Assembly (NCBI RefSeq): GCF_963666525.1
Contig: NZ_OY762905.1
Coordinates: 124,001-188,000 of the forward strand
DNA length: 64,000 nt
Source of the DNA: an uncultured Cohaesibacter sp.
GTDB taxonomy: Bacteria > Pseudomonadota > Alphaproteobacteria > Rhizobiales > Cohaesibacteraceae
Direction: 5' to 3'
Part shown: piece by piece, positions 5,811 to 45,535 of the stretch
Position numbering within the stretch: position 1 is the first letter of the stretch
How the letters are laid out: each line of letters opens with the position of its first letter
Made by a program: the position numbers and the translations under genes
The notes under the pieces: model-generated
Databases searched by the model: none
Told to the model about the DNA's origin: nothing
The model's input: only the letters and a program-made list of their open reading frames with translations

Positions 5811-5980
5811 TTCACTTCCCTCTTCTGCAACTTGCACCCGGATCTAAAATTCCGTCCTCTTTCATAGATAGAATGCGAAGACGGCCATTCAAGTTCCCGA
5901 TGCAGAGGCAGACCGTCTGGTCTGCCTCTGCTACGCTCACCACGAAGCCTGAAAAGGGTGTATCGGTATACGTCAGAAAA

Positions 5981-7375
5981 TCACGTCTGGATCACACGAC
6001 CATAGGCGTCTCGGACCGATTCCGGCATCATTTCCGACAGGGTCGGATGCGGGAAGATGGTTTCCATCAGCTCTTCTTCGGTCGTCTCCAGACCCATGGC
6101 AACAATGAAGCCCTGAATGAGCTCGGTCACTTCGGCGCCAATCATGTGTGCACCGAGCAACTGGCCGGTCTTCTTGTCAAAGATGGTCTTGATCATGCCT
6201 TCCGGCTCGCCAAGTGCAATGGCCTTGCCGTTGGCGATGAACGGGAAGCGGCCAACGCGGACGTCCAGCCCCTTTGCCTTGCAGGCCTGTTCGGTAAGAC
6301 CAACAGAGGAAACCTGCGGATGGCAATAGGTGCAGCCCGGGATCTTGCTCTTGTCCATCGGATGCGGATGCAGACCGGCGATCTTTTCAACGCAGATCGT
6401 GCCTTCATGCTCAGCCTTGTGCGCCAGCATCGGAGGACCGGCCACATCGCCAATCGCATAGATGCCTTCCACATTGGTACGGCCAAACTCGTCGATGACA
6501 ATGCAGCCACGATCGGTTTTGATACCAAGCTTTTCAAGGCCGAGATTCTCGATATTGCCCTGAACACCAACGGCAGAGATAATGCGATCAGCCTTGAAGA
6601 CTTCGGTCTTGCCGCCCTTCTTCTCGATGGTCGCCTCGACGTTGTTGCCGCCCTTCTTGACGCTGGTCACCTTGGCTTCGGTCAGGATCTTGATACCCTG
6701 CTTTTCAAGGGACTTGCGTGCCATGGAGGAGATTTCATCATCTTCCACCGGCAGAATCTTCGGCATCATTTCAACGACGGTTACGTCAGCACCCATGGTG
6801 TTGAAGAAGCTCGCGAACTCGATACCTATCGCACCGGAGCCAACGACCAGCAGGCTCTTTGGCATGATGTCCGGCTTGAGGGCGTTGAAATAGGTCCAGA
6901 TCAGCTGGCCATCCGGCTCAAGGCCGGGCAGAACGCGCGGACGGGCACCGGTTGCCAGAATGATGTGCTTGGCCTTGTAGGTGCCAGCATCATCGCCGCT
7001 GACGGTAAGGGCGCCCTTGCCTTCCAGCACGGCGGTCCCCTTGATCACGGTGACCTTGTTCTTCTTCATCAGGAATCCAACGCCGCTGTTCAGTTGCTTG
7101 GAAACGCCACGGGAGCGCTCGACAACCTTCTGCAGGTCGAAGCTGACGTTATCAGCCGACAGACCGTAGTCCTTGGCATTCTTCATGAAGTGATAGATTT
7201 CGGCGGAGCGAAGCAGCGCCTTTGTCGGAATGCAGCCCCAGTTGAGGCAGATGCCGCCCAGTTCGCTTTTCTCGACGATTGCCGTCTTGAGGCCGAGCTG
7301 GGAAGAGCGAATGGCAGTCACATAACCACCAGGTCCAGAGCCGACTACGATTACGTCAAATTCAGTCTGTGCCAT
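5981..7375 (-). CDS. lpdA: Dihydrolipoyl dehydrogenase (E3)
   Basis: Flavoprotein that reoxidises dihydrolipoamide with NAD+ for 2-oxoacid dehydrogenases. The 464-aa protein has the FAD-binding VVGSGPGGYVTAI motif, the redox disulfide GGICLNWGCIPTK, the NAD-binding VVGSGAIGIEFASFF, the second FAD motif IYAIGDVAGPPMLAHKAEHEG, and the C-terminal catalytic FPHPTLSE. Start at 7375 has GAGAGGT upstream. It lies 147 bp downstream of pdhC in the pdh cluster, with a GC-rich hairpin between them, and is most likely the E3 of pyruvate dehydrogenase. Confidence 0.97.
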   Translation of the reverse strand: MAQTEFDVIVVGSGPGGYVTAIRSSQLGLKTAIVEKSELGGICLNWGCIPTKALLRSAEIYHFMKNAKDYGLSADNVSFDLQKVVERSRGVSKQLNSGVGFLMKKNKVTVIKGTAVLEGKGALTVSGDDAGTYKAKHIILATGARPRVLPGLEPDGQLIWTYFNALKPDIMPKSLLVVGSGAIGIEFASFFNTMGADVTVVEMMPKILPVEDDEISSMARKSLEKQGIKILTEAKVTSVKKGGNNVEATIEKKGGKTEVFKADRIISAVGVQGNIENLGLEKLGIKTDRGCIVIDEFGRTNVEGIYAIGDVAGPPMLAHKAEHEGTICVEKIAGLHPHPMDKSKIPGCTYCHPQVSSVGLTEQACKAKGLDVRVGRFPFIANGKAIALGEPEGMIKTIFDKKTGQLLGAHMIGAEVTELIQGFIVAMGLETTEEELMETIFPHPTLSEMMPESVRDAYGRVIQT

Positions 7376-7475
7376 TTTGAAAATACCTCTCAATCGCCTC
7401 TTGATGTCCCGACAAGCAGCACCATCCCGGTCAGATGACAGGAACTGCGCGGTGGCAAGTGCGCCTCGGGACGGC

Positions 7476-7501
7476 CCGATCGCGCAACAAGGCGCGACCG
7501 G
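7476..7501 (-). other. GC-rich hairpin between pdhC and lpdA
   Basis: Arms CCGATCGCGC and GCGCGACCGG form a 10-bp stem with one mismatch and a 6-nt loop. There is no T-run on the minus strand, so it does not look like a terminator; it may be an mRNA processing or stability element that changes lpdA expression relative to pdhABC. Confidence 0.45.
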
Positions 7502-7522
7502 ACATACAAGAGGAAGTCGGAA

Positions 7523-8872
7523 TTAGACCAGCATGCTCATCGGGTTTTCGATGTAACCCTTGAATGCCTTGAGCAGTTCTGCGCCCAGAGCACCATCAAC
7601 AGTGCGGTGGTCGGTCGACAGGGTGACGGTCATCATGGTTGCAACCTTGATTTCGTCGCCCTCGATGATCGGACGTTTCTCACCGGCGCCAACGGCCAGA
7701 ATGGTCGAATGCGGCGGATTGACAACGGCAGAGAAGCTCTTGACGCCCATCATGCCCATGTTGGACACGGCGGTTGTACCACCCTGATATTCCTCAGGTT
7801 TGAGCTTGCGTTCCTTGGCGCGTTTGCCCATGTCCTTCATCTCGTTGGAGATGGTGGACAGAGCCTTTTCCTCGGCGCGGCGGATGATCGGGGTGATCAG
7901 GCCACCTTCGATGGAAACGGCAACACCCACGTCAACATGCTTGTGCTTGACCATGTTGTCAGCCGTCCAGGAGACATTGGCATCAGGCACATCGCGCAGG
8001 GCAAGTGCCAGAGCCTTGATCACCATGTCGTTGACCGACAGCTTGAACATAGGCTTGTCGTCCTTGCGCGGAGCCGAAGCATTCAGCTGGCCACGCAGAG
8101 CGAGCAGATCGTCCAGTTTGCAGTCGACCGACACATAGAAGTGCGGAATCGTCTGCTTGGCTTCGGTCAGGCGCTTTGCAATGGTCTTGCGCATACCGTC
8201 GTGCGGAACGAGCTCGTAGGAGCCTTCTTCGAACAGCTTGAGGACCTGAGCATCGGAAGGACCAGCAGCCGGAGCCGGAGCTGCAGCTGGCGCAGCAGCA
8301 GCTTTCGGAGCCTCGGCAGCAGCCGGAGCACCGGCCTTGGCAGTACCAGCTTCGATAGCAGCGTCGATATCGCGCTTGACGATACGTCCACGCGGACCGG
8401 TGCCGGTTACCTTGGCCAGATCCAGATCATTCATCTTGGCGAGGCGACGAGCCAGCGGCGAAGAGAAAATGCGGTTGCCATCGGCAGCCGTTGGAGCCGG
8501 ACCAGCAGCAACGCTGGCTTCAGGAGCCGCAGCAGCAGGAGCTGCCGCTTCCTTGGCCGGAGCAGCTTCTGGGGCAGGAGCCGCAGCCGGGCTGGCAGCA
8601 CTCATCCCGTCCAGAGCAGAGGCATCTTCGCCTTCTTCCAGCAACAGGGCAATCGGCGCATTCACGGCGACGTCGGCAGTACCGGCTTCGACAAGGATCT
8701 TGCCGATGATGCCTTCGTCAACAGCTTCCACTTCCATGGTAGCCTTGTCGGTTTCGATCTCGGCGATCACATCCCCGGAGGAGATTTCATCGCCTTCCTT
8801 GACCAGCCATTTGGCAAGGGTCCCGCTCTCCATGGTCGGAGAAAGGGCCGGCATCGTAATCGTTACGGGCAT
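7523..8872 (-). CDS. pdhC: Pyruvate dehydrogenase E2, dihydrolipoamide acetyltransferase
   Basis: Core acyltransferase of the pyruvate dehydrogenase complex, 449 aa. Order of domains: one N-terminal lipoyl domain (lipoylated K43 in [11 protein letters not shown]), an Ala/Pro-rich linker (about 95-130), a peripheral subunit-binding domain (RIFSSPLARRLAKMNDLDL), a second Ala/Pro linker, and the catalytic domain ending with the DHRTVDGA active-site motif. AAGGAGAG precedes the ATG. Only 12 bp separate it from pdhB. Confidence 0.97.
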   Translation of the reverse strand: MPVTITMPALSPTMESGTLAKWLVKEGDEISSGDVIAEIETDKATMEVEAVDEGIIGKILVEAGTADVAVNAPIALLLEEGEDASALDGMSAASPAAAPAPEAAPAKEAAAPAAAAPEASVAAGPAPTAADGNRIFSSPLARRLAKMNDLDLAKVTGTGPRGRIVKRDIDAAIEAGTAKAGAPAAAEAPKAAAAPAAAPAPAAGPSDAQVLKLFEEGSYELVPHDGMRKTIAKRLTEAKQTIPHFYVSVDCKLDDLLALRGQLNASAPRKDDKPMFKLSVNDMVIKALALALRDVPDANVSWTADNMVKHKHVDVGVAVSIEGGLITPIIRRAEEKALSTISNEMKDMGKRAKERKLKPEEYQGGTTAVSNMGMMGVKSFSAVVNPPHSTILAVGAGEKRPIIEGDEIKVATMMTVTLSTDHRTVDGALGAELLKAFKGYIENPMSMLV

Positions 8873-14843: not shown

Positions 14844-15429
14844 AGTCCTCCTGAAATTCCCCGCCAAGCCAGTCCGTTTACGGCTGGCCATGATCTTGCG
14901 AGATCCATAAATTCCTTCCCGCGTACCTCACTGCAGCGACGGACAAAGCAGACCGTTACCATTTGCAGCCGCTCTGCCCCCTCGGCGAGACCATCGCCCA
15001 TTGCGTTCGCTCGCCCGGGCAGCCACGCTACCGCCCTGACGGTCCCTCCCCCACGCATCTCGTTTTGCATTTTCTGCAATCATGACAATTGCGTTGACAT
15101 ATGCATTTAACATTACATTTGCAATGAAATGCTTTGTTTCATTGCAAATGATATATAAAACTGTTGCGCCATTCCTGCTGCCGAACACAAGGCATCAAGG
15201 CAGCGCGTCTTCAAACCACAAAAGACTGTCGCGACAAATTGCAACGACCGTTGCACCTTGCCATCTTACCTCTTTCGCGCTAAACACAGCCTCGGTCGAC
15301 AGTTCACCAAGGCGTCACTGCTTCTCTGAAGAGCTAAACCTGTCACACTGCATGGACCCACACTTATCCCGTGCCATGTCGCAAGAGTGACCACGACTTA
15401 CTGAATTCGGCACATGTCGAGGATAAGTC
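14844..15429. other. Intergenic region with a long dyad
   Basis: 586 bp without a convincing gene. The left half is ordinary GC-rich DNA; around 15061-15170 it becomes AT-rich and holds a consensus -35 hexamer TTGACA (15094-15099) and a 14-bp perfect inverted repeat annotated separately. The remaining 260 bp before the next gene contain no structure I can name. Confidence 0.5.
15116..15150. promoter_or_regulatory. 14-bp perfect inverted repeat (operator-like)
   Basis: CATTTGCAATGAAA (15116-15129) and TTTCATTGCAAATG (15137-15150) are perfect complements separated by 7 nt. A TTGACA hexamer lies 16 bp upstream and TATAAA (15153-15158) just after. The size and placement suit a dimeric repressor site across a promoter; no regulator gene is adjacent. 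Confidence 0.5.
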
Positions 15430-34042: not shown

Positions 34043-34489
34043 TTGAGAAAAGCGATTACTGCAGTCGGCATGCTCCTTGCTGCGAGCACAGCCCACGCAT
34101 CAGAACTGGTCTACACGCCGGTCAATCCGACGTTTGGCGGCAGCCCTTACAACTCCTCGCATCTGCTCTCCATTGCAAGCGCCCAAAGGTCGGCAACAGC
34201 GAGCGATGCAAACACCTCCAGCTCCAGCGGAGGAACCGACAGCGGAACAACCGACAATACCGCAGCCGATCTGTTCGTCAGTCAGCTGCAAAGTCGTCTG
34301 CTCTCCGCTCTCGCCAGCCAGGTGACGGAAGCCATTTTCGGTGACGACCCGCAGGAAAGCGGCACCATCACCTTTGGAGACACGGAAATCACCTTCAACC
34401 AGACGACAGATTCCATATCTCTCGTGATCACAGATTTCACCGATGGAACAGTGACCAATATCGAAGTTCCGCAATTGGTTACAAACTAG
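34043..34489 (+). CDS. csgF: Curli assembly protein CsgF
   Basis: 148-aa secreted protein that couples the CsgG pore to curli nucleation at the cell surface. A TTG start at 34043 with GGAGA eight bases before it gives a clean signal peptide (MRKAITAVGMLLAASTAHAS); the frame stays open to 33827 without support. After cleavage comes YTPVNPTFGGSPYNSSHLLS, matching the E. coli CsgF segment NPNFGGNPNNG that plugs into CsgG. A Ser/Thr/Asn linker (45-70), a helix (LFVSQLQSRLLSALASQVT) and the C-terminal beta region (LVITDFTDGTVTNIEVPQL) follow. csgG starts 15 bp later. Confidence 0.9.
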   Translation: MRKAITAVGMLLAASTAHASELVYTPVNPTFGGSPYNSSHLLSIASAQRSATASDANTSSSSGGTDSGTTDNTAADLFVSQLQSRLLSALASQVTEAIFGDDPQESGTITFGDTEITFNQTTDSISLVITDFTDGTVTNIEVPQLVTN

Positions 34490-34504
34490 CCTCTGGTTTT
34501 GAAA

Positions 34505-35569
34505 ATGAATGATACTCTCCGAATCCGGTCAGGATCGAACCGTGGCCTAGGCAAACGCTTAGCGGTTCCTGTTCTCCTCGCCATGGTCACCCTTGCGGGC
34601 TGTGCCACCAACAAATCCCTGATGACAGAAGCCCCGCGCGTAGCCGAAGTCAGCGAGAACAATCTGAGGCTAAGAAATATCCCGGCTCCCAAGCAGCGCA
34701 TTCCCGTTGCCGTCTATGATTTCAAGGACGAAACCGGACAATATCGCGAAGCGGCAAATTATCAGCAGCTGTCGCGCGTCGTAACACAGGGTGGCGTTGC
34801 CATCCTGATCAAGGCTTTGCAGGACGCTGGCAATCGTCGCTGGTTTACCGTCATGGAACGCAACAAGCTGGCCGACTTGCTCAAGGAACGACAGATCATC
34901 ACCGAAATGCGCCGGCTTTATCGCGGCGAGGAAAAGATCAACGCCAGTGTCCTGCCGCCGCTCAAACATGCCGCGATCATCATCGAGGGCGGCATCATCG
35001 GCTACAACCACAATGTCCAGACAGGTGGCCTTGGTGCGTCCTATCTGGGCATTACCGGAGACAGCGACTATTCCAAGGACGAGATCACGGTTTCCCTCAG
35101 GGCCATTTCCACCAAGACAGGCGAAGTCCTGACAACCGTGACAGCCCGCAAGACCGTCGTTTCGGTTGGCTTGCAGGCTTCGGTATTCCGCTATGTCAAG
35201 CTGGATGAGTTGCTGCAGGCAGAAGGTGGCTTTACCAGCAACGAGCCAAGTCAGATTGCCCTTGAGGCTGCGGTCGAAAAGGCTGTTGAAGCCCTGATCG
35301 CTGAAGGCGTAGAGCTTGATATCTGGCAATTCAAGGATCCTGGATATGGCAACTCTTATGTCAAGACCCTGAAGTCGGAACAATATCGGGATGCAAAGGA
35401 TGCGACCTCTCCCACCATGCTGCCACCGGAAACCCAAAATGCAACGGCGATTTCGACGACAGTACCGAGAATCGTTATCAGTCAGAAACCAAAGCCAACG
35501 CAACCCGTCAGACAAACAACAAGACGGCTTCCGCCACCATATTCGAATAATGAAGGCCCACTTGGCTGA
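34505..35569 (+). CDS. csgG: Curli secretion channel lipoprotein CsgG
   Basis: Outer-membrane pore through which curli subunits leave the periplasm. 354 aa from the ATG at 34505; a TTG six bases earlier is possible. Lipoprotein signal ends TLAGC with acylated C33. Conserved blocks: PVAVYDFKDETGQYR, QGGVAILIKALQDAGNRRWFTVMERNKLADLLKERQI, IIIEGGIIGYNHNVQTGGLGASYLG and VSLRAISTKTGEVLT. Beyond the family end it has an extra ~70-residue Pro/Thr/Gln-rich tail (about 285-354). A strong terminator follows, separating it from the curlin genes. Confidence 0.95.
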   Translation: MNDTLRIRSGSNRGLGKRLAVPVLLAMVTLAGCATNKSLMTEAPRVAEVSENNLRLRNIPAPKQRIPVAVYDFKDETGQYREAANYQQLSRVVTQGGVAILIKALQDAGNRRWFTVMERNKLADLLKERQIITEMRRLYRGEEKINASVLPPLKHAAIIIEGGIIGYNHNVQTGGLGASYLGITGDSDYSKDEITVSLRAISTKTGEVLTTVTARKTVVSVGLQASVFRYVKLDELLQAEGGFTSNEPSQIALEAAVEKAVEALIAEGVELDIWQFKDPGYGNSYVKTLKSEQYRDAKDATSPTMLPPETQNATAISTTVPRIVISQKPKPTQPVRQTTRRLPPPYSNNEGPLG

Positions 35570-35600
35570 ACGAATTAGCAATTTAATTTTTACATATTTA

Positions 35601-35635
35601 AAAAGACTGAGGAAGTATTTATTCCTCGGTCTTTT
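35601..35635 (+). terminator. Terminator of the csgFG unit
   Basis: Stem AAAAGACTGAGGAA / TTCCTCGGTCTTTT (one G-T pair) with a 7-nt loop and a T-run, 32 bp after the csgG stop. It indicates that the curlin genes have their own promoter. Confidence 0.85.
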
Positions 35636-35876
35636 TTATTTTATGTTCCGCTATTAACCATCAAATTTTACCAACAAATTCAAAAGAAAATACATTTTTA
35701 ATAAATTGATTTCTTTCATGTTGACTTTCAAAGTTAAGGAGAGGTAAATGAGTTGTATTGTCACTTTTTGATATCTTGAGTTGCATTTTCTACAAATGCG
35801 GGAGACGCAAAAGAGGGGGAAGCCCCCGGGTGGTGGCATCAATTTTTAACAAAGCTATTCATATGGGAGACAACAA
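35636..35876 (+). promoter_or_regulatory. Leader region of the first curlin gene
   Basis: AT-rich first half with TTGACT (35721-35726), then AAGGAGAGG followed by an ATG (35748) that opens a 7-codon frame (MSCIVTF, stop at 35771). Hairpins GCATTT/AAATGC (35783-35799), TGCG/CGCA (35797-35809) and GGGGG/CCCCC (35815-35827) follow and partly exclude each other. GGGAGA serves the curlin ATG at 35877. Promoter position is not certain. Confidence 0.4.
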
Positions 35877-37265
35877 ATGACCAAAACTCGTTTGGCACTC
35901 ATGGCAGCTGTTGCCTCTGCTGCTATCTCTTCAGGCTATGCCTACGCAGCAAGCAACAACGCAACCGTGGATCAGAGCGGAAACCAGAACTCTGCCTCGA
36001 TCATCCAGGACGAAGCTGACAACAACAGAGCCTTCGTCACACAGATCAATGATACCGACAGCAATTCAAACACGCTGACAATCGAGCAGAAATCTTCCTG
36101 GAGCTCTGCCTTCGGGGTCGTTCAGGACGCCTCGACCGGCACCGGCAGCAACACCGCAGACATCCTGCAGCAGGGCCGCACCGCCAACAACATCCGCGGT
36201 CTTACCCAGACGGTGACCGACGCCGGTTCCAATACCGCCACCATCAACGAAACCGGCTACAACAACTCGATCCGTTCGGTCAGCCAGACCAACACAGGTG
36301 CATCGGACAACACCATTTCCATCGATCTCTCCGGCAGCCGCAATGGTTACACCAACTCCCGGGCGACCGGCAGCGTGGTATGGTCGGCCCTTTCCGGTTA
36401 TGCAGCCGCTTCGACGGCCTCCAATGGCGTTGTCTCGCAGGATGGCACGGGCAATGACATCACCCTTGCCATCACGGGTGACGACAACCTGTTCGGCGTG
36501 TCCCAGAAGGGCACCAACAGTCTTTCCGCCCTGTCCATCACCGGTGACACCAACCAGCTTGGCGTCTATCAGGAATCGACCGCTGCCGGCCCCAACAGCC
36601 TGACCATCGCCGCCATCAATGGTGACGACAACAACATCGGTGCCTACCAGTACGGTGCCAACACCGGCACCATCAATCTGGACACCACCAGCAACCGCAA
36701 CATGGTCCTGCTGCATCAGTCTGGCGACAACACCGGCACCGTTTCCATCAGCAATGGCAGCGACAACAGCATCTCTCTGGTTCAGGACGGCACCAATAGC
36801 GCCAACATTGCCGTCGCCCGCAGCTTCAACGAGATCTATGCCACTCAGATCGGAACCAATCTGCTTGATGCGGATATCGAAGGCAATTTCAACAGCTTCA
36901 CCATCAACCAGACGACGCCAAATGGCACGCTGATCGGCGCACAGAACGAATTGACCCTCTCGGTCTATGGCAATTCCAACGGTCTGCGCAGCTGGCGCGG
37001 GAATGTGGCCCATGATGTTGGCCTGACGGCAGGCACCCTCACCCAGACCGGCCTCGACAACACGGCTAATGTATCTGTCGGTTCGTCCAGCAGCTTCAGC
37101 GCCAACAACGTTCTGGCCCTTGCCCAGATCGGCGACAGCAACAGCATCGCCATCGATATCTCGGCAGGCAACTCCAATCAGGTCGCCATCTCCCAGACAG
37201 GTGACAGCAACAGCTCGGCCGTCACACAGGTCGGCTCCGACAACGTCGTTGGCATTAGCCAGTAA
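35877..37265 (+). CDS. Curlin-repeat amyloid subunit 1
   Basis: 462-aa secreted protein. Signal peptide MTKTRLALMAAVASAAISSGYAYAA. The mature chain is built of short strand-turn units rich in N, G, S, T, D and Q. By eye there are six strict Q-x-G-x-x-N motifs (QSGNQN, QDGTGN, QTGLDN, QIGDSN, QTGDSN, QVGSDN) and many [IV]-x-G-D-x-N turns (ITGDDN, ITGDTN, INGDDN). Residues about 368-462 form the C-terminal module shared with the next four proteins, ending VVGISQ. About three times the size of CsgA. GGGAGA precedes the ATG. Expected to be exported through CsgG and to polymerise; which subunit is major is unknown. Confidence 0.85.
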   Translation: MTKTRLALMAAVASAAISSGYAYAASNNATVDQSGNQNSASIIQDEADNNRAFVTQINDTDSNSNTLTIEQKSSWSSAFGVVQDASTGTGSNTADILQQGRTANNIRGLTQTVTDAGSNTATINETGYNNSIRSVSQTNTGASDNTISIDLSGSRNGYTNSRATGSVVWSALSGYAAASTASNGVVSQDGTGNDITLAITGDDNLFGVSQKGTNSLSALSITGDTNQLGVYQESTAAGPNSLTIAAINGDDNNIGAYQYGANTGTINLDTTSNRNMVLLHQSGDNTGTVSISNGSDNSISLVQDGTNSANIAVARSFNEIYATQIGTNLLDADIEGNFNSFTINQTTPNGTLIGAQNELTLSVYGNSNGLRSWRGNVAHDVGLTAGTLTQTGLDNTANVSVGSSSSFSANNVLALAQIGDSNSIAIDISAGNSNQVAISQTGDSNSSAVTQVGSDNVVGISQ

Positions 37266-37294
37266 ACGGCCATGGGTTTGACGCCCAGCATCGA

Positions 37295-37319
37295 GGTGGG
37301 CGGCACTTCGCCGCTCACT
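37295..37319 (+). other. Intercistronic hairpin after curlin 1
   Basis: GGTGGGCGGC / GCCGCTCACT with loop ACTTC, 30 bp after the stop, with two G-T pairs. No T-run, so full termination is doubtful. Resembles the element after curlin 2. Confidence 0.45.
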
Positions 37320-37373
37320 TTCACGATCTCAAATTCAACCGAGGGAAAGATGACGCAGACCCCTAACCTCTGG

Positions 37374-37403
37374 TTGACACTCATGGTGAATTTAAAGTAA
37401 TGA
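37374..37403 (+). promoter_or_regulatory. Weak internal promoter candidate before curlin 2
   Basis: Consensus TTGACA at 37374-37379 followed after 18 bp by TAATGA, a poor -10. The 243-bp gap between curlins 1 and 2 is long for an operon and AT-rich at its 3' half. It also holds TCGATCC/GGATCGA with a 23-nt loop (37440-37476). Confidence 0.25.
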
Positions 37404-37508
37404 TTGTAAATTAATTTGATTATACCATTGGTTGCATTATCGATCCCATCCCTTAGGAAACCGGAAGCCGGATCGAGACACCTGCGAACATCATTTCGGA
37501 GACGACAC

Positions 37509-39047
37509 ATGACTAGAATTCGTTTGGCACTTATGGCTGCTGTTGCATCTGGTGTTATCGGTGTTGGCTACGCCTACGCCGCGGGAGGCAATGAGGCGGC
37601 CATTCGTCAGGAAGGCCAGAGCAACGCAGCCAGAATCGACCAGAGTGGAGGTCAGGATAACCAGTTCAACAGCACCGGAGCCAGCGACACCAGCGCAGCC
37701 CTTCAGATGGGGAATGACAACACCGTAGATATCCTGCAGCAGGGAACGGGCAACCAGATCGGCCTCATTGCAAACCGCTTCAATCAGCTCGATGAGATCA
37801 TCCATCGCCTTGATGGCAGCGCAACGCTCAATCGCGCGGCATGGGGCGTACCGGCCGAAGACTTCGACAGCGATGCCACCACAGGCGTCGCCCAGATTGG
37901 TGACAACAACGAATTCATTGCAGTTCAGAAGGACGGGGGCAATGTCATTGGCGGCGTTGTTCAGATTGCCGTCCGCCCGTCTGGCGCCCTGAAGAATACC
38001 CTTGAGATTACCCAGCAGGGCGGCTCGGGAAACGAGGTGTCGCAAGTGATGCAGGCAACCTCCTACGACAAGCAGAATTATGCCTCCATTACGCAGACCG
38101 GCTCCAACAACAAGATTGCAGCCATCAACCAGATCGGCGTCAATGTTGCAGGTGCAACCACTGCGGTGAACAGCATCATTGCCAATATCAGCGGCACGGA
38201 TAACGGCACCAGCGCCCTCACCGGCTATGCCCTCTCTTCAGGTGCCACAACCAGCGAACTGAACCAGTTCGGGGCTGACAACTCGATTTCCCTCAACATC
38301 ACCGGGGCCAGCAACAACAACGCTTTTGGCGTCAGCCAGACCAACTATGGTGGCGGTCGCAACACTCTGCAGGCGCTGACGATCACGGGCGACGACAACC
38401 AGCTCGGCGTTTCACAGGATGCTGACGGAGTTGCTGGCAATCACAACCAACTGACCATCAGCTCGATCATTGGCAATGGCAACAACATCGGCGTCTCCCA
38501 GTTGGGTAGCAACCTTGGCACCATCGACCTGAAAACCGACTCCGACAACAACCAGATTGGCCTGTCCCAAACCGGAACCAACCTGGCATCTGTTACCATT
38601 TTCTCCGGTGACGGCAACAATTTCGATCTGACGCAGGAAGACTTCAACCAGCTGACGATCAATGTGACCGGCAGCTTCAACCTGCTGAAAACATCGCAGT
38701 CAGGCTCGGCTGCGGGTAGCGACAATATTCTCAACGCCACCATTTACGGCAGCAGCAACAACAGCACCGGCTTTGACCTTGCCGGTGTCGCCGGGGCCAC
38801 CGGTCTTGTCGCCGGAGAACTGATCCAGACCGGTTATGGCAACCTGGCCACCATCGATGTCGGCTCTTCGACGATGGACAGCAACAACAACTCCTTCGCT
38901 CTCACCCAGAACGGAAACAACAACGAGGCCGTCATCAGCATTTCCGAAGGCAACGACAACCAGGTTGCCCTGCTGCAGAGCGGCAACGGCAACTATTCCA
39001 GTATCACGCAGGTCGGGTCATCCAACATTGTTGGCGTAACCCAGTAG
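37509..39047 (+). CDS. Curlin-repeat amyloid subunit 2
   Basis: 512-aa secreted protein from the ATG at 37509 (GGAGA upstream); the frame is open further upstream but the signal peptide MTRIRLALMAAVASGVIGVGYAYAA fixes the start. By eye ten strict Q-x-G-x-x-N motifs, for example QMGNDN, QQGTGN, QTGSNN, QFGADN, QTGYGN and QVGSSN. A less regular stretch (about 80-115) contains NRFNQLDEIIHRLDG and AAWGVPAEDFDSD, with charged and aromatic residues unlike the rest, which may form an insertion loop. Residues 417-512 are the shared C-terminal module, ending IVGVTQ. Confidence 0.85.
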   Translation: MTRIRLALMAAVASGVIGVGYAYAAGGNEAAIRQEGQSNAARIDQSGGQDNQFNSTGASDTSAALQMGNDNTVDILQQGTGNQIGLIANRFNQLDEIIHRLDGSATLNRAAWGVPAEDFDSDATTGVAQIGDNNEFIAVQKDGGNVIGGVVQIAVRPSGALKNTLEITQQGGSGNEVSQVMQATSYDKQNYASITQTGSNNKIAAINQIGVNVAGATTAVNSIIANISGTDNGTSALTGYALSSGATTSELNQFGADNSISLNITGASNNNAFGVSQTNYGGGRNTLQALTITGDDNQLGVSQDADGVAGNHNQLTISSIIGNGNNIGVSQLGSNLGTIDLKTDSDNNQIGLSQTGTNLASVTIFSGDGNNFDLTQEDFNQLTINVTGSFNLLKTSQSGSAAGSDNILNATIYGSSNNSTGFDLAGVAGATGLVAGELIQTGYGNLATIDVGSSTMDSNNNSFALTQNGNNNEAVISISEGNDNQVALLQSGNGNYSSITQVGSSNIVGVTQ

Positions 39048-39060
39048 TCCATATGCCCCA

Positions 39061-39086
39061 TGGTGGGACGGCACGCCGCCTCACCA
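39061..39086 (+). other. Intercistronic hairpin after curlin 2
   Basis: TGGTGGGACGGC / GCCGCCTCACCA, near-perfect with a tight tip, 13 bp after the stop and similar in sequence to the hairpin after curlin 1. No T-run. Possibly an mRNA stabiliser or partial terminator. Confidence 0.45.
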
Positions 39087-39275
39087 TCCCTTTGCGTTGA
39101 ACATCAAGGCCCCGACAGGAAGAGCTTGGCCGGCCATTCCGGCTCAGGATCGAACTTAAGCAATAGATGTTTTGGCAATCCATTTCAGAGCACTCAAACG
39201 CTGCACACGTCACGAGCGTAGACCGGGCAAGGCCCAGACGCATGCAAGTCATGAGTAGAATATTGGAGACATTAA

Positions 39276-41126
39276 ATGACTAGAATTCGTTTGGCACTAT
39301 TGGCAACCGCAGCAACCGGCTCGATCGCCATGGCAGGCCTGGCCTACGCTGCGAACAATGAGGCATTCATTGCACAGTCGGGCAACAACAACGCCGCGTC
39401 GGTGGATCAGACCAACACTGGCGGGACAGCCGACCGCAACCAGCTTGGCAGCGCCAGCGACGCTGTGCTCCAGAACGGCTCCTCCAACAGCCTTGACGTG
39501 ACCCAGAGCGGTAGCGACAACGCCATTGGCCTTCTCGGCGACGGCGTCGACCAGTCCGGCGCAAACAACGGCTTTGATGCGTTGCAGGCCACCGACGACA
39601 ACATCATCGGCTCGGTCCAGCAGATCGAGAACTCCGCCGCGGGTGCCGATGGTACCAACTATCTGCGCATCAAGCAACAGGTGGGCAACGCCAACACTGT
39701 TGGCTCCGTTCGGCAGGAAACTTCCGCCGATGGCGAAAACAGGGCCATCCTTCGGCAGGACGGGTCTGGTAACCGGATCAAATCCGTATCCCAGACCAAC
39801 AACGGCAATGGAACCAACAATCTGGTCGTCAAAATCGAGGGCAATGGCAATGGCACGTCCGACGCTTTGACCAACTACGCAGACTATAGCGGCGTCAATG
39901 GCAGCGAAATCATCCAGTCTGGCAGCGACAACGAGATCAAGCTCTATATCACCGGCGACGACAACCAGTTCGGCGCAACCCAGACCAATCTGTCTGGCGG
40001 CACCAACAGCATCAACGCCCTGAAGGTGGAAGGGAATCGCAACGAATTGGGCGTTTCCCAGATTGCCCATTCAGCCACCGATGACAACACGCTGACCATC
40101 CGGAAGATCATCGGCGATGACAACAACGTCGGCGTCAGCCAGTTGGGCTATGGCAGCAACATCGGCACCATCTCTCTGGGTAGCAGCAGCGATGCCAACT
40201 GGGCGAAGCTGATCCAGCAAAATGGCGCAACTGCCAAGATAACGGTCAATACTGGCGACTACAACCGCCTCTCCATCGAGCAGTATGCGGCCAGCACCGC
40301 CGACAATGATGCCGAGATCGAGGTGACATCGAGTGACATGCTGCGCGCCAACAACCACCTCTACATCCGGCAATATGGCGACGGTGAACATGCGCGCACA
40401 TCTGCCATTGGTGATTTCAACTATTCCAGCATTCAGCAGACCGCCAGCGGCAATAGCGCAACAGTCTCTATCACCGGCAATAGCAACAAGAACTTCACCT
40501 ACCAGAACCATTATGCCAAAGACAACCTGGCAACAATCACTGTGACAGGCGATCGCAATGAGATCCGTAGCAACCAGCAAGACGGTGGCTCTGACAGCTC
40601 TGTCACCGTCACGATAGCTGGCAACGGCAACACTGTGAAGAACACGCAGCAAGTCAGCAGCAATGACGTCCTCACCGTGGACATCACTGGCCAGAACAAC
40701 ACCATCAGCTCTACTCAGAACACGACATCTGGCAGTTCAGCCGAATTCGCAATCCTTGGCGACAGCAACAACTTTGACGCAACCCAGATGCTTGGTGCTG
40801 CAAACGGCCTGACAACCACAATCTATGGCAACGACAACGGCATGGGCATCTGGTCTGTCGGTGGTGCGGCTGCGTCACTGCTGCTTGATAGCGGCTATCT
40901 GAGCCAGTCCGGTTCCGGCAACACTCTGGCGCTGGCCATTGGTGACAGCGGGTTAAACAGCTCCAGCAACCTTGTGGCCACCATGCAGAATGGCGATGGC
41001 AACATGATCGACATTTCAATCAGCGCAGGCGACAGCAACGAAGTGGCGATCAGTCAGCAGGGCAACGCCAACAGCTCTCAGGTTGCTCAAGTAGGCTCGA
41101 TGAACATCGTCGGCATCAGCCAGTAA
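39276..41126 (+). CDS. Curlin-repeat amyloid subunit 3
   Basis: 616-aa secreted protein, the largest of the set. Signal peptide MTRIRLALLATAATGSIAMA, probably cleaved near LAYAA. By eye eleven strict Q-x-G-x-x-N motifs (QSGNNN, QNGSSN, QSGSDN twice, QVGNAN, QDGSGN, QQGNAN and others). It is richest in the second turn class, with ITGDDN, IIGDDN, ITGNSN, VTGDRN, IAGNGN, ITGQNN and ILGDSN. The middle (about 350-480) has aromatic and charged residues (YIRQYGDGEHARTS, NKNFTYQNHYAKDN) that may interrupt the amyloid ladder. Residues 521-616 are the shared C-terminal module. GGAGA precedes the ATG. Confidence 0.85.
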   Translation: MTRIRLALLATAATGSIAMAGLAYAANNEAFIAQSGNNNAASVDQTNTGGTADRNQLGSASDAVLQNGSSNSLDVTQSGSDNAIGLLGDGVDQSGANNGFDALQATDDNIIGSVQQIENSAAGADGTNYLRIKQQVGNANTVGSVRQETSADGENRAILRQDGSGNRIKSVSQTNNGNGTNNLVVKIEGNGNGTSDALTNYADYSGVNGSEIIQSGSDNEIKLYITGDDNQFGATQTNLSGGTNSINALKVEGNRNELGVSQIAHSATDDNTLTIRKIIGDDNNVGVSQLGYGSNIGTISLGSSSDANWAKLIQQNGATAKITVNTGDYNRLSIEQYAASTADNDAEIEVTSSDMLRANNHLYIRQYGDGEHARTSAIGDFNYSSIQQTASGNSATVSITGNSNKNFTYQNHYAKDNLATITVTGDRNEIRSNQQDGGSDSSVTVTIAGNGNTVKNTQQVSSNDVLTVDITGQNNTISSTQNTTSGSSAEFAILGDSNNFDATQMLGAANGLTTTIYGNDNGMGIWSVGGAAASLLLDSGYLSQSGSGNTLALAIGDSGLNSSSNLVATMQNGDGNMIDISISAGDSNEVAISQQGNANSSQVAQVGSMNIVGISQ

Positions 41127-41150
41127 CCGCCCCAGACACCGGCACCAACA

Positions 41151-41176
41151 GGATGGACGCCCGCCAGCGCCCATCC
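41151..41176 (+). other. Intercistronic hairpin after curlin 3
   Basis: GGATGGACGC / GCGCCCATCC with a 6-nt loop (one G-T or mismatch), 24 bp after the stop and followed by TTCATTTC. The nearest to a terminator of the three, but the T-run is poor. The next gene starts 44 bp later. Confidence 0.45.
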
Positions 41177-41219
41177 TTCATTTCACAGGCATTGATGCCC
41201 GATCTGGAGGGGCAGACCC

Positions 41220-42773
41220 ATGAAAATGACCCGTCACCTTGTGCAGAATGCAGCGCTGAGCCTCGCCATGGCCACATGCGCGACGGCGGCTTTGGCTGAT
41301 GAAAACGAGGTCTATCTTGGCCAGACTGGCGTTACCAACGTCATTGACATCAATCAGCTGGGCGATGCCAACAAGATCGGTGCCGATGACAGGCAGATTT
41401 TCATCTCCCAGCAGGGCATCAGCAACGAGATGACGATTTCCCAGACGGGATACAGCAACCAGGCAGGGGCACGGGCGTCGTCCGGAAGCCTTGGACTGCA
41501 GGGTCTCTACCAGACCGGTGCATTGAATAGTCTCGAGATCACGCAGGAAAACGACAACGCCAGCGGCATCAACCAGATTGGCGCCATCTCTCAGGTGTCG
41601 CCCGATACCTATGCCTCGACGCGCAGCAACAGTCTCACCATCATTCAGAGCCACAACGCCCTTGATGGCACCGTTGGCTCTGGCGACGGCCAAGGCAATC
41701 ACTTCATCGGCGAGATCCAGCAGATTCAGACCGCAACCGCCCTTTCCCCCAACATTGCCACGATCCGGCAATATGACGGTGGGAACAATGGTGATGGCGG
41801 CAACAGCATCAACCGGCTGGTTCAGGAGGGCAGCGCAAACCGCGTCGATATCACCCAACAATATCGCGGCAACGCCATAGAGACCTTCCAGCAATACGGG
41901 CTTTCCAACGAAGCCTCCATCCTGCAGCGGGCGGGCATGGACAATCTGATCTCCAGCTTCAACCAGATTGGCAGCAGCAACAGGACGGCGGTCACCATGA
42001 CCGGCTCTCGCAACCTTTTGCTTTCCCTCATTCAGAACAATGATCTCGTCAGCGTGGCGGGCAACCTTGCTACCGTTCAGCTTGGCGGGGATGATAACGG
42101 CGGCGACGGGTTCGGTGGAATTGGGCAGTTCACCCACGCCATCACCAAACAGCTGGCCGTCGCGCAGGCGGAGATCAAGCAGCTCGGTGACGACAACACG
42201 CTCAACTTCGTGACCTCGGGTGTCTCTTCGATGACAGCGTTCGGTTTCGTGCAGGATGGCGACGGCAACTGGTTGAGCGGCACCACCGACGGAACGGAGA
42301 ACGAGGTGGCAGCGTTGCAGATCGGCGACGGCAACCGGCTGAACTTTTCCCAGAGCGGAGACCGCAACGCCCTGTCCGTCTCCTATCGCGGCAAGGACAA
42401 TGAACTGAACGCCGTACAGACCGGCGATGACAACACCATGTCAGTCGCCTTTGACGGCAGCGTCAGCCCCCTCACCCGCAGCGATCAGAATAATGACACG
42501 GCTCTGGGCGGGTTCACGGATGTTGTGCTTGGCGCGGCAGGCACCCTGACACCCGGTCAGGCCATTCAGACAGGCAACCTCAATGTCGCCTTCGTGCAAA
42601 TCAGCGAAGGCAGTTTCAACAAATTCGCCTTTTCGCAGTCTGGTGATCAGAACGTCATCGACGGTGCCATCCATGGTTCATCCAACCAGTCTGCCGTCGT
42701 CCAGACTGGTGGCGACAACTATGCTTACTACCGCCAGTCGGGCAATTACAACCAGCTCATCATCCTGCAGTAG
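41220..42773 (+). CDS. Curlin-repeat amyloid subunit 4 (most CsgA-like repeats)
   Basis: 517-aa secreted protein. Signal peptide MKMTRHLVQNAALSLAMATC ending near ATAALA, mature start DENEVYLGQTG. By eye seventeen strict Q-x-G-x-x-N motifs, the most of any gene here: QTGVTN, QLGDAN, QQGISN, QTGYSN, QTGALN, QEGSAN, QYGLSN, QIGSSN, QLGDDN, QDGDGN, QIGDGN, QSGDRN, QTGDDN, QTGNLN, QSGDQN, QTGGDN, QSGNYN. This regularity makes it the best candidate for the main CsgA-type fibre subunit. Residues about 424-517 are the shared C-terminal module, ending LIILQ with several Tyr. GGAGGGG lies upstream. Confidence 0.87.
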   Translation: MKMTRHLVQNAALSLAMATCATAALADENEVYLGQTGVTNVIDINQLGDANKIGADDRQIFISQQGISNEMTISQTGYSNQAGARASSGSLGLQGLYQTGALNSLEITQENDNASGINQIGAISQVSPDTYASTRSNSLTIIQSHNALDGTVGSGDGQGNHFIGEIQQIQTATALSPNIATIRQYDGGNNGDGGNSINRLVQEGSANRVDITQQYRGNAIETFQQYGLSNEASILQRAGMDNLISSFNQIGSSNRTAVTMTGSRNLLLSLIQNNDLVSVAGNLATVQLGGDDNGGDGFGGIGQFTHAITKQLAVAQAEIKQLGDDNTLNFVTSGVSSMTAFGFVQDGDGNWLSGTTDGTENEVAALQIGDGNRLNFSQSGDRNALSVSYRGKDNELNAVQTGDDNTMSVAFDGSVSPLTRSDQNNDTALGGFTDVVLGAAGTLTPGQAIQTGNLNVAFVQISEGSFNKFAFSQSGDQNVIDGAIHGSSNQSAVVQTGGDNYAYYRQSGNYNQLIILQ

Positions 42774-42891
42774 AAGCTGGTTGTACTATATATTTTTTCT
42801 ACCACAAGATTTAAGATAAGATTCACTCTGTCATCAAGAAATGACTCAATCGCAACGCTCAAGAGGTTCACATAAAAGCTCATTAAAGATT

Positions 42892-42933
42892 TCCCTGTTC
42901 TACTGGCTTCAGTTGAAAGCAAAGGAACAGGGA
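42892..42933 (+). promoter_or_regulatory. Inverted repeat enclosing the curlin 5 ribosome-binding site
   Basis: TCCCTGTTC (42892-42900) and GAACAGGGA (42925-42933) are perfect 9-bp complements with a 24-nt loop; the right arm lies directly before the ATG at 42935 and overlaps the AGGAACAGGG ribosome-binding site. Same geometry (9-bp stem, 24-nt loop) as at pdhA. Confidence 0.5.
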
Positions 42934-42934
42934 T

Positions 42935-43444
42935 ATGCAAAAACAACTGACGGCTTTGGCAACAATTCTCCTCTTGAGCGTGGCCACGCAGGCATATGCG
43001 GAGACGAATGTAATCGAGTTACTTGATGACGCAAATCTGGATGGAAATGTCATTGAGATGAACATCACCGGCGACAACAACAGCCTGAGCCTCACTCAGG
43101 ACTTTGCTTTGGGCGCCTGGGGCGAAAATCTGATGGATATCACCATCGACGGAAACAACAACGGCGGCGCCAATGGTTCCATCTTTTCAGGTGTGGCGCT
43201 CAAAAGTGGGTTGCAGCCGGGAGAATTGATCCAGGAAGGGTTCGACAACAGCATGATTGTGAATGTCAGCGGCAACAGCAATCTGTTCTCCTTCCTGCAA
43301 AATGGAGCGCACAACTCGCTTCAAGCCTCAATCGAGGGCACAGGTAACCAGGCCGCTGTGCAGCAATATGGACAGAATAACCACGTGAGCTTCAGCCAGA
43401 TGGGCAGCAACAACAGCATCAACATCTCGCAAAGATCATTCTAG
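42935..43444 (+). CDS. Short curlin-repeat protein 5
   Basis: 169-aa secreted protein. Signal peptide MQKQLTALATILLLSVATQA. It has a short N-terminal part with ITGDNN and IDGNNN turns, then residues 77-169 are essentially the C-terminal module of the large curlins: GELIQEGFDN, VSGNSN, QNGAHN, IEGTGN, QYGQNN, QMGSNN and the end INISQRSF. By eye four strict Q-x-G-x-x-N motifs. Size and simplicity are close to CsgA/CsgB; it may be a nucleator, a cap or a minor subunit. The 161-bp gap from curlin 4 is AT-rich and ends in the ribosome-site hairpin. Confidence 0.82.
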   Translation: MQKQLTALATILLLSVATQAYAETNVIELLDDANLDGNVIEMNITGDNNSLSLTQDFALGAWGENLMDITIDGNNNGGANGSIFSGVALKSGLQPGELIQEGFDNSMIVNVSGNSNLFSFLQNGAHNSLQASIEGTGNQAAVQQYGQNNHVSFSQMGSNNSINISQRSF

Positions 43445-43452
43445 GGTCATTC

Positions 43453-43480
43453 TGTGCCAATGAATGAGGAGACTGGCACA
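43453..43480 (+). promoter_or_regulatory. Hairpin at the curlin 6 start
   Basis: TGTGCCA (43453-43459) and TGGCACA (43474-43480) are perfect complements; the 14-nt loop carries the GAGGAGA ribosome-binding site and the right arm ends in the A of the ATG. It could display or mask the site. Confidence 0.4.
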
Positions 43481-44208
43481 TGAACAAAGCCTTCTATTTG
43501 GGCGCTCTTGCACTATCCCTTGCGGGGCTCCCGCTTTCAACCGCTCTGGCCGGTGACGAAAACACCCTGATCCTGCTTCAGGAGGGTACCGGAAACACCA
43601 TTTCCATCGATCAGCAGACGGCGATTGGCAGCCAGATCGGTGGTGTCAATTTCGTCGAGAAATCGGCGTTTGAGAACTCCGAGTTCGAGGTGCTCGATCT
43701 TTCGAACCCGCTGAACTTCAATGAAGCATCCAACCATCCGATCCTGCAGTTGGGCGACAACAACAGCGCCAACATCACGATCGAGGGGCAGGATGACGTG
43801 GTCTACCTGCAGCAGAACAGTCAGGGACAGGCACCGGGCAACAATGCCGATATCTATGTCAACTCTGGCGCAGGAGCTCCTTCCTTTGCGGCAGTCGTGC
43901 AGACAGGCGCTGGCAACAATGCCGAGGTCAGCATTGACGGCAGCCTTTCCAACGGAACAATCCTGCAAAACGGATCGGACAACAACGGCTCCATCACCGT
44001 GGACGGCAACAATGTCACCGCGGCCTTGACGCAGGTCGGCTCCAACAATGACAGCCAGTTGGTGGCTCAGGGCAATGCCACGTCCGCCACTGGCGTCGAC
44101 GGTGCGAACGTGACCTATACGCTCTATGCCAATGGCGTCACGACAACTCAGCCGGTCACCGTGTCGACAAACGGCGCGTCCGTCAGCATTACGCAAATCC
44201 AGTTCTGA
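43480..44208 (+). CDS. Atypical curlin-like protein 6 (nucleator candidate)
   Basis: 242-aa secreted protein. Signal peptide MNKAFYLGALALSLAGLPLS, mature start GDENTLILLQEGTGN, similar to the start of curlin 4. By eye five strict Q-x-G-x-x-N motifs (QEGTGN, QLGDNN, QTGAGN, QNGSDN, QVGSNN), spaced more widely than in the others. Residues 55-80 (GVNFVEKSAFENSEFEVLDL) are non-repeat and acidic. It lacks the shared C-terminal module and ends with a Thr/Val-rich strand region (TYTLYANGVTTT ... SITQIQF). A CsgB-like nucleator or surface anchor is a guess. GAGGAGA precedes the ATG. Confidence 0.75.
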   Translation: MNKAFYLGALALSLAGLPLSTALAGDENTLILLQEGTGNTISIDQQTAIGSQIGGVNFVEKSAFENSEFEVLDLSNPLNFNEASNHPILQLGDNNSANITIEGQDDVVYLQQNSQGQAPGNNADIYVNSGAGAPSFAAVVQTGAGNNAEVSIDGSLSNGTILQNGSDNNGSITVDGNNVTAALTQVGSNNDSQLVAQGNATSATGVDGANVTYTLYANGVTTTQPVTVSTNGASVSITQIQF

Positions 44209-44224
44209 TCCTTCCAACGCCCGA

Positions 44225-44242
44225 CCCTGCCTTCTGGCAGGG
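44225..44242 (+). other. Intercistronic hairpin after curlin 6
   Basis: Perfect CCCTGCC / GGCAGGG stem with TTCT loop, 16 bp after the stop. Followed by ATTTGGGG, so not a classic terminator. Confidence 0.5.
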
Positions 44243-44323
44243 ATTTGGGGGAGCATGGCCTTGCGATATCCCGTTGCACAAAAGACAAATCCAACCGGCC
44301 ATGGCTGGAGACTTGGCCCGGCC

Positions 44324-44722
44324 ATGCGTCTGTCACTGTTGCTAGGCCTTGCCATCACCCCGAGCATGGGAACGCCAACCATGGCCTCCGACCAGCAAGC
44401 AGAACCAAGACTTGTCTTTGAGACCAATGGCGATCAGCTCACCATTTCAGGCGTTCTGCAGCCAGCAGCCCCGGGCGACTATGTTGCCAAACTCGAAGTC
44501 ATCAAATCAGGGCCGAACGGCAAGGCAACCACCAGACAGAGCAACAGGATTACGGTCAACGGTGACAAGGCCTATCCATCGAGCAAGGTCTCCTTGCGCT
44601 TGTCGACGGGCGACCATGTCACCGCCCGGCTCGATCTCTTTTCCAATGACAAGCTCCTTCAGAGCACCAATCGAGAATTTGAATTCGGCGCCCCGGCGCC
44701 GGAGGACAAAACCCATTTGTGA
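44324..44722 (+). CDS. csgH: CsgH-like curli chaperone/inhibitor
   Basis: 132 aa from the ATG at 44324, which gives a signal peptide (MRLSLLLGLAITPSMGTPTMA); an upstream ATG at 44255 adds 23 residues and sits too close to its GGGGGAG. The mature domain (about 25-125) is an all-beta pattern: RLVFETNGDQLTISG, YVAKLEVIKSGPNGKATTRQSN, KVSLRLSTGDHVTARLDLF. This fits CsgH/CsgC-type immunoglobulin-like proteins, which hold curli subunits unfolded in the periplasm and are known from alphaproteobacteria. Position after the curlin genes agrees. Confidence 0.75.
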   Translation: MRLSLLLGLAITPSMGTPTMASDQQAEPRLVFETNGDQLTISGVLQPAAPGDYVAKLEVIKSGPNGKATTRQSNRITVNGDKAYPSSKVSLRLSTGDHVTARLDLFSNDKLLQSTNREFEFGAPAPEDKTHL

Positions 44723-44744
44723 TCCATTTTTATCGGTGAAATCA

Positions 44745-45470
44745 ATGATCAGGCCAACCGCAGTTTTCGCATCCGCTCTCCTCTGGCTGAGCTGCCTTTC
44801 GCAGGCACCAGCTCTGGCTCAAACCCCAAGCGCAGTGGCAAAAGCCTTCGCTGGCCGCTGGATCACCTATGATCGGAACTTTTCCGACCAGAAGAGCTGT
44901 ATCTTCGCGTTTTCCAGTGAATTGAAAGACGACATCTTCCCTATTGCCAAGACCGGGTGCACCGGCGCTCTTGCCGCCATTGTTGGCTGGCGTATCCAGA
45001 ACAACCAGTTGGTCTTTGTTGCTGAGGACAAGAGTGCCGTCGCTCTGGTCGGGGGCAATCAGGAACGAATGAGCGGTTCCATCCTGCAAAGCAAGTTGCC
45101 GATCATCTTCGAGCGTCTGGAAGTGGCCGAAAAGATCGAGCAAGCCCGCAAGTCCATCGAATGCTCTTACGTTGGCTACAGCCAGACCTGCGCTTCACCG
45201 CAGGACTTTACTCCGCCACCAGCAACCATAGGCTCGCCCTCCCCCATCCAGATCCTTGTGAACCTCAATGCGCGTGCCGAGCCTCGCAACAGCGCCTCCG
45301 TCAAGGGCGTGTTGAAGCCCAATGCCTGCGTCAGCGCCGAAGTATGTACCGTCGCGTCCGATGGCCTGTGGTGCAAGGTGAAAACGAAAAACGGCAACGC
45401 ATGGGTCAAGAAGCAGACCGTCCGTCAGCAGAGGTGGCCCATCATCACCTTCAAGAACGGCTGCGTCTGA
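44745..45470 (+). CDS. Secreted protein with Inh/AprI-like domain and SH3b domain
   Basis: 241 aa from the ATG at 44745, 22 bp after csgH. Signal peptide MIRPTAVFASALLWLSCLSQ ending near APALA. Residues ~30-125 (AGRWITYDRNF, the Cys in KSCIFAFSSE, the Cys in KTGCTGAL, VGWRIQNNQLVFVAED) match the small beta-barrel of the AprI/Inh protease-inhibitor family, including the cysteine pair. A Pro-rich linker follows, then an SH3b domain (VNLNARAEPRNSASVKGVL ... DGLWCKVKTKNGNAWVKK). It is the last gene before a strong terminator, so probably co-expressed with the curlins; its role there is unknown. Confidence 0.7.
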   Translation: MIRPTAVFASALLWLSCLSQAPALAQTPSAVAKAFAGRWITYDRNFSDQKSCIFAFSSELKDDIFPIAKTGCTGALAAIVGWRIQNNQLVFVAEDKSAVALVGGNQERMSGSILQSKLPIIFERLEVAEKIEQARKSIECSYVGYSQTCASPQDFTPPPATIGSPSPIQILVNLNARAEPRNSASVKGVLKPNACVSAEVCTVASDGLWCKVKTKNGNAWVKKQTVRQQRWPIITFKNGCV

Positions 45471-45501: not shown

Positions 45502-45535
45502 GCCACCAGTGGCACCAAGCTGCTGGTGGCTTTTT
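45502..45535 (+). terminator. Terminator closing the curlin operon
   Basis: Perfect 8-bp stem GCCACCAG / CTGGTGGC with a 13-nt loop followed by five T, 31 bp after the SH3b-protein stop. Confidence 0.85.

Follow-up and report, generated by a model that had tools for sequence, protein, structure and literature searches.

A csgH-type curli locus of Cohaesibacter with fixed and variable curlin subunits, two short subunits with regular repeats at one end, and a linked inhibitor-fold protein

What is known of how a functional amyloid fibre is started, limited in length and varied at its surface comes mostly from one small subunit pair of Escherichia coli, encoded in the CsgBAC-DEFG system. In the available part of the published account, alphaproteobacterial loci of the csgH type carry csgG, often csgF, several dissimilar curlins and csgH, as in Cohaesibacter; csgC, csgD and csgE are reported absent from this class, and such loci hold up to six csgA/B genes in Rhodopseudomonas (PMC3521004). 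The accessible portion of a curlin survey describes subunits of 4 to 62 repeats, genomes with as many as 30 copies, a conserved repeat length and hence lateral size, with more repeats making longer subunits, and a solved long CsgA fibre for which head-to-tail stacking was proposed (PMC10192328). We analysed a stretch of 64,000 nucleotides (the window; contig NZ_OY762905.1, positions 124,001 to 188,000) of an uncultured Cohaesibacter sp., a marine-type bacterium with a 5.18 Mb genome in a single contig, whose nearest named relatives by csgG are C. haloalkalitolerans JC131 (94%) and C. marisflavi (82%). Positions 34043-45470 of its forward strand hold csgF, csgG, six curlin genes (cur1 to cur6), csgH and a gene for a secreted protein with Inh and SH3b domains (Inh/SH3b; Table 1). 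A text search of the available literature for Cohaesibacter with curli gave no match.

The locus is a csgH-type (alphaproteobacterial) curli locus, an already known kind. It encodes the CsgG pore, CsgF and the secreted curlin-repeat subunits of curli, or type VIII secretion (signal peptides were judged by eye across the locus), and csgH adjoins the subunit genes. CsgG, CsgF and the curlin repeats are common to it and E. coli, and a division into major and minor subunits is plausible here too; it differs from E. coli in having CsgH instead of CsgC and in lacking CsgE by profile. Indeed, the CsgE profile found no match in the host genome, with a positive E. coli control, and we do not place the locus in the gammaproteobacterial type. 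Compared with the Rhodopseudomonas-type loci, in so far as the consulted part of their account covers them (PMC3521004), the Cohaesibacter locus has its six curlins in one array, single-copy cur4 to cur6 and the Inh/SH3b gene, and neither the end rule nor the interior exchange described below is met in that part. Long and multiple curlins have been published before; new here are the split between fixed and variable subunits, short subunits that are clean at one end, an interior exchange in one long subunit, and an inhibitor-fold protein that accompanies the locus.

We propose, with a probability of roughly 0.48, that the locus makes a head-to-tail co-polymer of exchangeable long rods, which two asymmetric short subunits start or close. 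Export would not need CsgE, and CsgH and an inhibitor would shield the subunits in the periplasm. The subunits would enter the periplasm unfolded, be kept soluble by CsgH and leave through a CsgG-CsgF pore that works without CsgE. Outside the cell, cur1 to cur4 would fold into beta-solenoid rods whose ends are clean and match one another, and would join head to tail in a single fibre able to mix subunits, while cur5, clean at its C end only, and cur6, clean at its N end only, would be one-ended minor subunits that start or close the fibre, two where E. coli has the single CsgB. The long subunits would be the exchangeable body of the fibre, free to duplicate, to be lost and to swap interior blocks as long as their ends stay compatible. 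The Inh/SH3b protein would most likely be periplasmic and keep a protease off the disordered subunits or the site of export. Gene content, conservation, the end rule, one interior exchange and the predicted folds of two proteins are what the analysis shows; stacking, nucleation, capping, protection and inhibition are the steps that we infer. Standard-ended rods together with two one-ended subunits would make initiation, capping and mixed assembly separately testable. Exchangeable interiors held between fixed ends would also be a natural template for engineered amyloid materials.

The initial annotation, made from the letters of the window, had csgF and csgG followed by six curlin-repeat genes of the sizes in Table 1 with QxGxxN repeats, and profile searches and shuffling confirm it. 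CsgF scores 110.5 bits (Pfam cut-off 25.8; profile positions 2-132 of 132), CsgG 195.8 (cut-off 20.8), and all six ORFs after csgG, at 25 to 59.9 bits, exceed the PF07012 cut-off of 20.7. QxGxxN occurs 6, 11, 11, 17, 4 and 6 times in cur1 to cur6, above all of 1000 shuffles of each protein (means 0.19-0.66; maximum 4, with 2 for the 169-aa and 3 for the 242-aa protein). In a whole-genome profile search, all eight PF07012 matches (E up to 0.001) fell inside the csg locus, which also holds the sole CsgG match of the genome. Gene starts were partly revised: csgF opens with TTG at 34043, and the likely starts of csgH and Inh/SH3b lie at 44324 and 44745.

The locus had also been called giant, with fibres that could be wide, mixed, or built from long beta-solenoid rods rather than stacked small units. 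The long subunits are indeed about three to four times larger than the E. coli subunit of about 152 aa. However, neither size nor number is by itself out of the ordinary among curli at large, since the survey figures quoted above exceed them and since the 17 csg loci that we found outside the genus but within the order contain curlin-like ORFs (called by motif, without a Pfam scan) of 724, 791 and 1306 aa; we therefore dropped the idea of an unprecedented giant. The 1306-aa ORF (locus L081 of genome G169, 4465-8385) has 51 motif matches and exceeds every curlin of the window. Wider fibres from longer subunits were likewise discarded, because the conserved repeat length sets the cross-section (PMC10192328, as far as accessible). 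Long rods fared better, by prediction and for cur3, the one subunit modelled. The AlphaFold2 model of this 616-aa protein (predicted local distance difference test, pLDDT, 80.8; predicted template modelling score, pTM, 0.82) has about 22 predicted rungs and finds its best match in the CsgA fibre subunit 8c50 (27% identity over 352 aligned residues; root-mean-square deviation 8.7). This is CsgA R15.5 of Pontibacter korlensis, like cur3 a long, many-repeat beta-solenoid, and modelled head to tail in the accessible part of its description (PMC10192328). The R15.5 solenoid is highly regular, whereas that predicted for cur3 is less so. The cur3 prediction is compatible with CsgG-dependent amyloid fibres on the cells. 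Pontibacter korlensis belongs to a different phylum from Cohaesibacter. Rods that are clean at both ends would be expected to stack head to tail, the arrangement proposed for the long CsgA fibre, and the opposition of rods to stacked units is therefore not supported; mixed fibres are plausible, given a C-terminal module common to five of the six subunits (see below).

The related loci carry the same gene set, with a variable number of long curlins. Curlin matches were found in 14 of the 18 genomes of the genus, and CsgF in the same 14 (a csgF orthologue stands in each of the 13 other main loci). The order in the 14 loci is csgF, csgG, one to four genes of the cur1-cur3 type (class A), cur4, cur5, cur6, csgH and Inh/SH3b, with cur5 placed elsewhere in G009 and on another contig in G010, and with an extra class A gene remote from the main locus in G005 and G016. 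Class A amounts to 28 copies of 444-639 aa, one of them disrupted. By contrast, cur4 (512-527 aa), cur5 and cur6 are each single in 14/14 genomes; ten of the 14 cur5 rows have 169 aa, and in the others the extra length looks like upstream starts picked by the ORF finder. The median best identity over 78 genome pairs is 0.53 for class A, a value favoured by taking the best of several copies, as against 0.62 for cur4, 0.69 for cur5, 0.58 for cur6 and 0.72 for CsgG.

Such a distribution could also arise from ordinary curli with redundant paralogues, in which a single long subunit builds the fibre and the rest are near-neutral duplicates being lost. The copy number of class A, one to four, would fit, as would the broken copies: cur2 of G014 lies in two ORFs (L031, 10605-12226), and in G010 a class A gene and csgG are each in more than one frame (L026, 9599-12361), which may reflect either decay or sequencing errors. 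(The split cur2 was left out of every class A set, and the disrupted G010 copy, L026_9599, out of the end-module, identity, end-gap and window-identity counts.) Yet cur4, cur5 and cur6 stay single in every one of the 14 genomes with little change in length. Furthermore, in 11 genome pairs chosen as close, 25-aa windows below 50% identity number 48/412 in class A, a figure that owes much to pairs distant throughout, against 0/209 in cur4 (1/57 in cur5, 2/90 in cur6 and 1/142 in CsgG). We consider the redundant-paralogue explanation unlikely.

The classes also differ in their ends. With repeats called by the motif Q-x-[GS]-x-x-[NS] and rough signal-peptide cuts, the first repeat of class A (27 copies) lies 8-21 residues from the mature N end (the N gap) and the last repeat 6 residues from the C end (the C gap); the two gaps are 8-16 and 6 in cur4 (14), 77-83 and 9 in cur5 (14), and 9-22 and 38-52 in cur6 (14). 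In every measured row, then, the cur1-cur4 type is clean at both ends, whereas cur5 is without clean repeats at its N end alone and cur6 at its C end alone; no other class has an N gap in the range of cur5 or a C gap in the range of cur6. The last residue is Gln in all class A and cur4 proteins, cur5 ends in QRSF (14/14) and cur6 in QF (12/14), after a conserved, non-canonical tail past its last repeat. A model of the 80 C-terminal residues of class A has its best match at the C end of 14/14 cur5, 11/14 cur4 and 4/14 cur6 proteins; the corresponding models of cur4 and cur5 match the C end of 27/27 class A proteins and of no cur6 (0/14), and that of cur5 the C end of 10/14 cur4. These profile matches point to one C-terminal module common to class A, cur4 and cur5.

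In the available part of the structural survey, the C-terminal repeat of the E. coli nucleator CsgB is degenerate, a feature linked there with binding of CsgF, and the first CsgB repeat is in part less conserved too (PMC10192328). By analogy with that C-terminal repeat, cur6 is the best candidate for a CsgB-like nucleator or anchor, and we guess that cur5 is more likely its partner or a cap. Membership in CsgB is not claimed: cur5 and cur6 score 31.4 and 34.3 bits with the CsgB equivalog, whose cut-off is 165. We also tried to divide the six subunits into CsgA and CsgB by NCBIfam score, and gave this up, as there is no clean split and all scores are far under the equivalog cut-offs.

Several observations weigh against this assignment of ends. 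Degenerate repeats may have been missed by motif calling, and folding would still be possible at the ends that we describe as irregular. The first half of the cur6 model matches the C end of 12/27 class A and 13/14 cur5 proteins, so that cur6 may consist of the module repeats plus an extra conserved tail rather than have lost an end. The N-terminal models are weak: that of class A matches the N end of 3/14 cur4 and 6/14 cur6, that of cur4 matches 12/14 cur6 and only 3/27 class A, and none gave an N-terminal match in any cur5. CsgB itself offers no clean one-ended precedent, because degeneracy affects both its last repeat and part of its first, and by NCBIfam the long subunit cur2 scores higher as CsgB than as CsgA. 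Finally, the end rule is only partly seen outside the genus, where 6 of 17 loci (two of these six being near-identical relatives) contain short curlin-like ORFs clean at the C end only, under thresholds (N gap of 45 or more, C gap of 12 or less, under 300 aa) set after viewing the end gaps; several other short ORFs there have a large C gap. This is suggestive only.

The long subunits, for their part, show one interior exchange. In 25-residue windows, identity between cur3 of the window and that of the sister species G003 is 84-96% up to residue 275, 68% from there to about 325, 32-48% over about 326-450 and 72-100% beyond. The G003 interior is closer to cur3 of G017 (62%) and G013 (61%) than to its relatives by the flanks, G012 (47%) and the window (46%). 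Trees of the two flanks join the window, G012 and G003 (support 92/99 and 100/99) and reject the alternative clade in the approximately unbiased test (p-AU 0.011 and 0.0004), whereas for the interior it is the flank clade that is rejected (p-AU 0.003) and the alternative that is not (0.34); these p values are optimistic, since the clades were picked after viewing identities and BLAST matches, and for the interior tree the program warned of long branches meeting. On these alignments and trees, the cur3 interior appears to have been exchanged in the sister species with its ends unchanged. The swap was tested in this one case. Other cases are suggestive only: G012 has a pair of cur1-type genes with 36-76% identity up to about residue 251 and 96-100% after it.

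An exchanged block of this kind recalls surface-variable proteins, and each long subunit might form its own type of fibre chosen by conditions, the subunits being separate adhesins or surface variants. Promoters could lie in the 243 and 228 nt that precede cur2 and cur3, and the extra class A genes of two genomes lie outside the main locus. We regard separate fibres as quite unlikely, given that the common C-terminal module speaks for compatible ends and that, of 52 gaps between curlins scanned, just one had a terminator-like site. The same script scan detected such a site between csgG and the first curlin in 10 of 14 loci (one of these ten gaps includes a split gene; gaps after cur6 were left out of the 52). 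In the window it parts csgFG from the curlin block, so the operon order given by the initial annotation holds only in part. Because this site recurs in the csgG-curlin gap and is rare in the others, csgFG and the curlin block are probably two transcripts. A sigma-70 promoter scan of the region was uninformative (4 sites, against 7.1 in shuffles).

At the far end of the curlin block, csgH starts 115 nt past cur6. The CsgH-like call holds by NCBIfam (NF041112, 44.1 bits against a cut-off of 35, scored on a longer ORF) but not by Pfam (16.2 against 27); the Protein Data Bank (PDB) match, to CsgH 2n59, is weak (E 0.014), and csgH is weakly matched in five loci (L019, L021, L024, L026 and L032). 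The Inh/SH3b gene directly follows csgH in 14/14 main loci. Its window copy stays under the Pfam cut-offs, both for Inh (PF02974, 17.4 against 25) and for SH3; among five orthologues scanned for Inh only that of L024 passes (26.3), and the L019 orthologue passes for SH3_4 (27.4 against 24.1). The predicted fold, which contains the inhibitor barrel, agrees with the Inh assignment. The protein differs from the Inh, APRin and U-Omp19 protease inhibitors by its C-terminal SH3b domain and its linkage to a curli locus.

The gene might be a passenger unrelated to curli, acting in the general defence of the periplasm. Indeed, tblastn gave no match in the 17 csg loci outside the genus (some of which end at contig edges), and no serralysin-family or M10_C peptidase was matched in the host genome, which counts against our proposal and led us to reject serralysin as the inhibitor's target. 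On the other hand, Inh/SH3b was not found in G002 and G006, Cohaesibacter genomes without a csg locus, and beyond its constant place after csgH its identity to the window copy stays at 49-95%, whereas that of csgH drops below 30%. We hold the passenger explanation possible but somewhat doubtful. The presence of an inhibitor-fold protein beside the curli genes suggests that unfolded amyloid subunits may need shielding from proteolysis, besides early aggregation. The most far-reaching form of our proposal, a modular amyloid of interchangeable standard-ended rods with recombining interiors, whose surface display could change with polymerisation intact, with two one-ended subunits to start and close the polar fibre and a dedicated, peptidoglycan-bound protease inhibitor to guard the disordered subunits in the periplasm, seems to us unlikely as a whole; in that view, pairs of one-ended subunits might occur more widely in the order.

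Table 1. Features of the Cohaesibacter curli locus (positions of the window).
Feature	Positions	Strand	Remarks
csgF	34043..34489	+	148 aa; TTG start; signal peptide by eye
csgG	34499..35569	+	356 aa; start 34499 or 34505; outer-membrane curlin pore
Hairpin resembling an intrinsic terminator, in the gap from csgG to cur1	35600..35636	+	
cur1, class A long curlin	35877..37265	+	462 aa; Pfam 55.1 bits
cur2, class A long curlin	37509..39047	+	512 aa; Pfam 59.9 bits
cur3, class A long curlin	39276..41126	+	616 aa; Pfam 33.5 bits
cur4, single-copy long curlin	41220..42773	+	517 aa; Pfam 36.7 bits
Hairpin over cur5 ribosome-binding site	42892..42933	+	weak evidence
cur5, short curlin	42935..43444	+	169 aa; Pfam 25 bits
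cur6, short curlin	43480..44208	+	242 aa; Pfam 25 bits
csgH, CsgC-like amyloid inhibitor	44324..44722	+	132 aa; NCBIfam NF041112
Inh (protease-inhibitor fold) + SH3b	44745..45470	+	241 aa; secreted
Probable terminator after curlin block	45502..45535	+	listed stem 45513-45528; longer stem by eye

The hairpin at the ribosome-binding site of cur5 has 92.7% of its cells paired and could lower cur5 output. Neither its pairing (as high in 277/500 column shuffles) nor its covariation (123/500) exceeds the shuffles, and RNA folding of the whole region is not unusual (z -0.75). Its sequence is kept in the 12 in-locus copies and absent from the two relocated ones. PDB matches of CsgG stop at residue 280-281 of 356, leaving a C-terminal tail past the E. 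coli match. This tail (35340-35569) ends in a conserved LPP-type motif, found genus-wide and in the locus L065 described below. The idea that the tail is unique was dropped, since other loci of the order have long but dissimilar tails.

In the order at large, CsgF was detected in 31 of 397 sampled genomes, of which 17 lie outside the genus. Nine of these 17 CsgF matches end at profile position 47-54 of 132 (G396, G172, G076, G356, G027, G203, G189, G169 and G025); these short proteins may keep just the portion of CsgF that enters the CsgG pore. L065, from another family of the order (G111), contains csgF, csgG, a class A-like curlin and a cur4 at 46% identity, and may owe these genes either to transfer or to contamination (estimated at 7%). 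Two genomes have empty sites: their moeA-lexA interval, 10.6 kb in G002 and 7.4 kb in G018, gives no tblastn match to csg proteins, so the site has varied content. Rfam at gathering thresholds gave no match in the locus itself, and outside it, at 15293-15345 of the window, a COG3860 RNA motif (60.2 bits).

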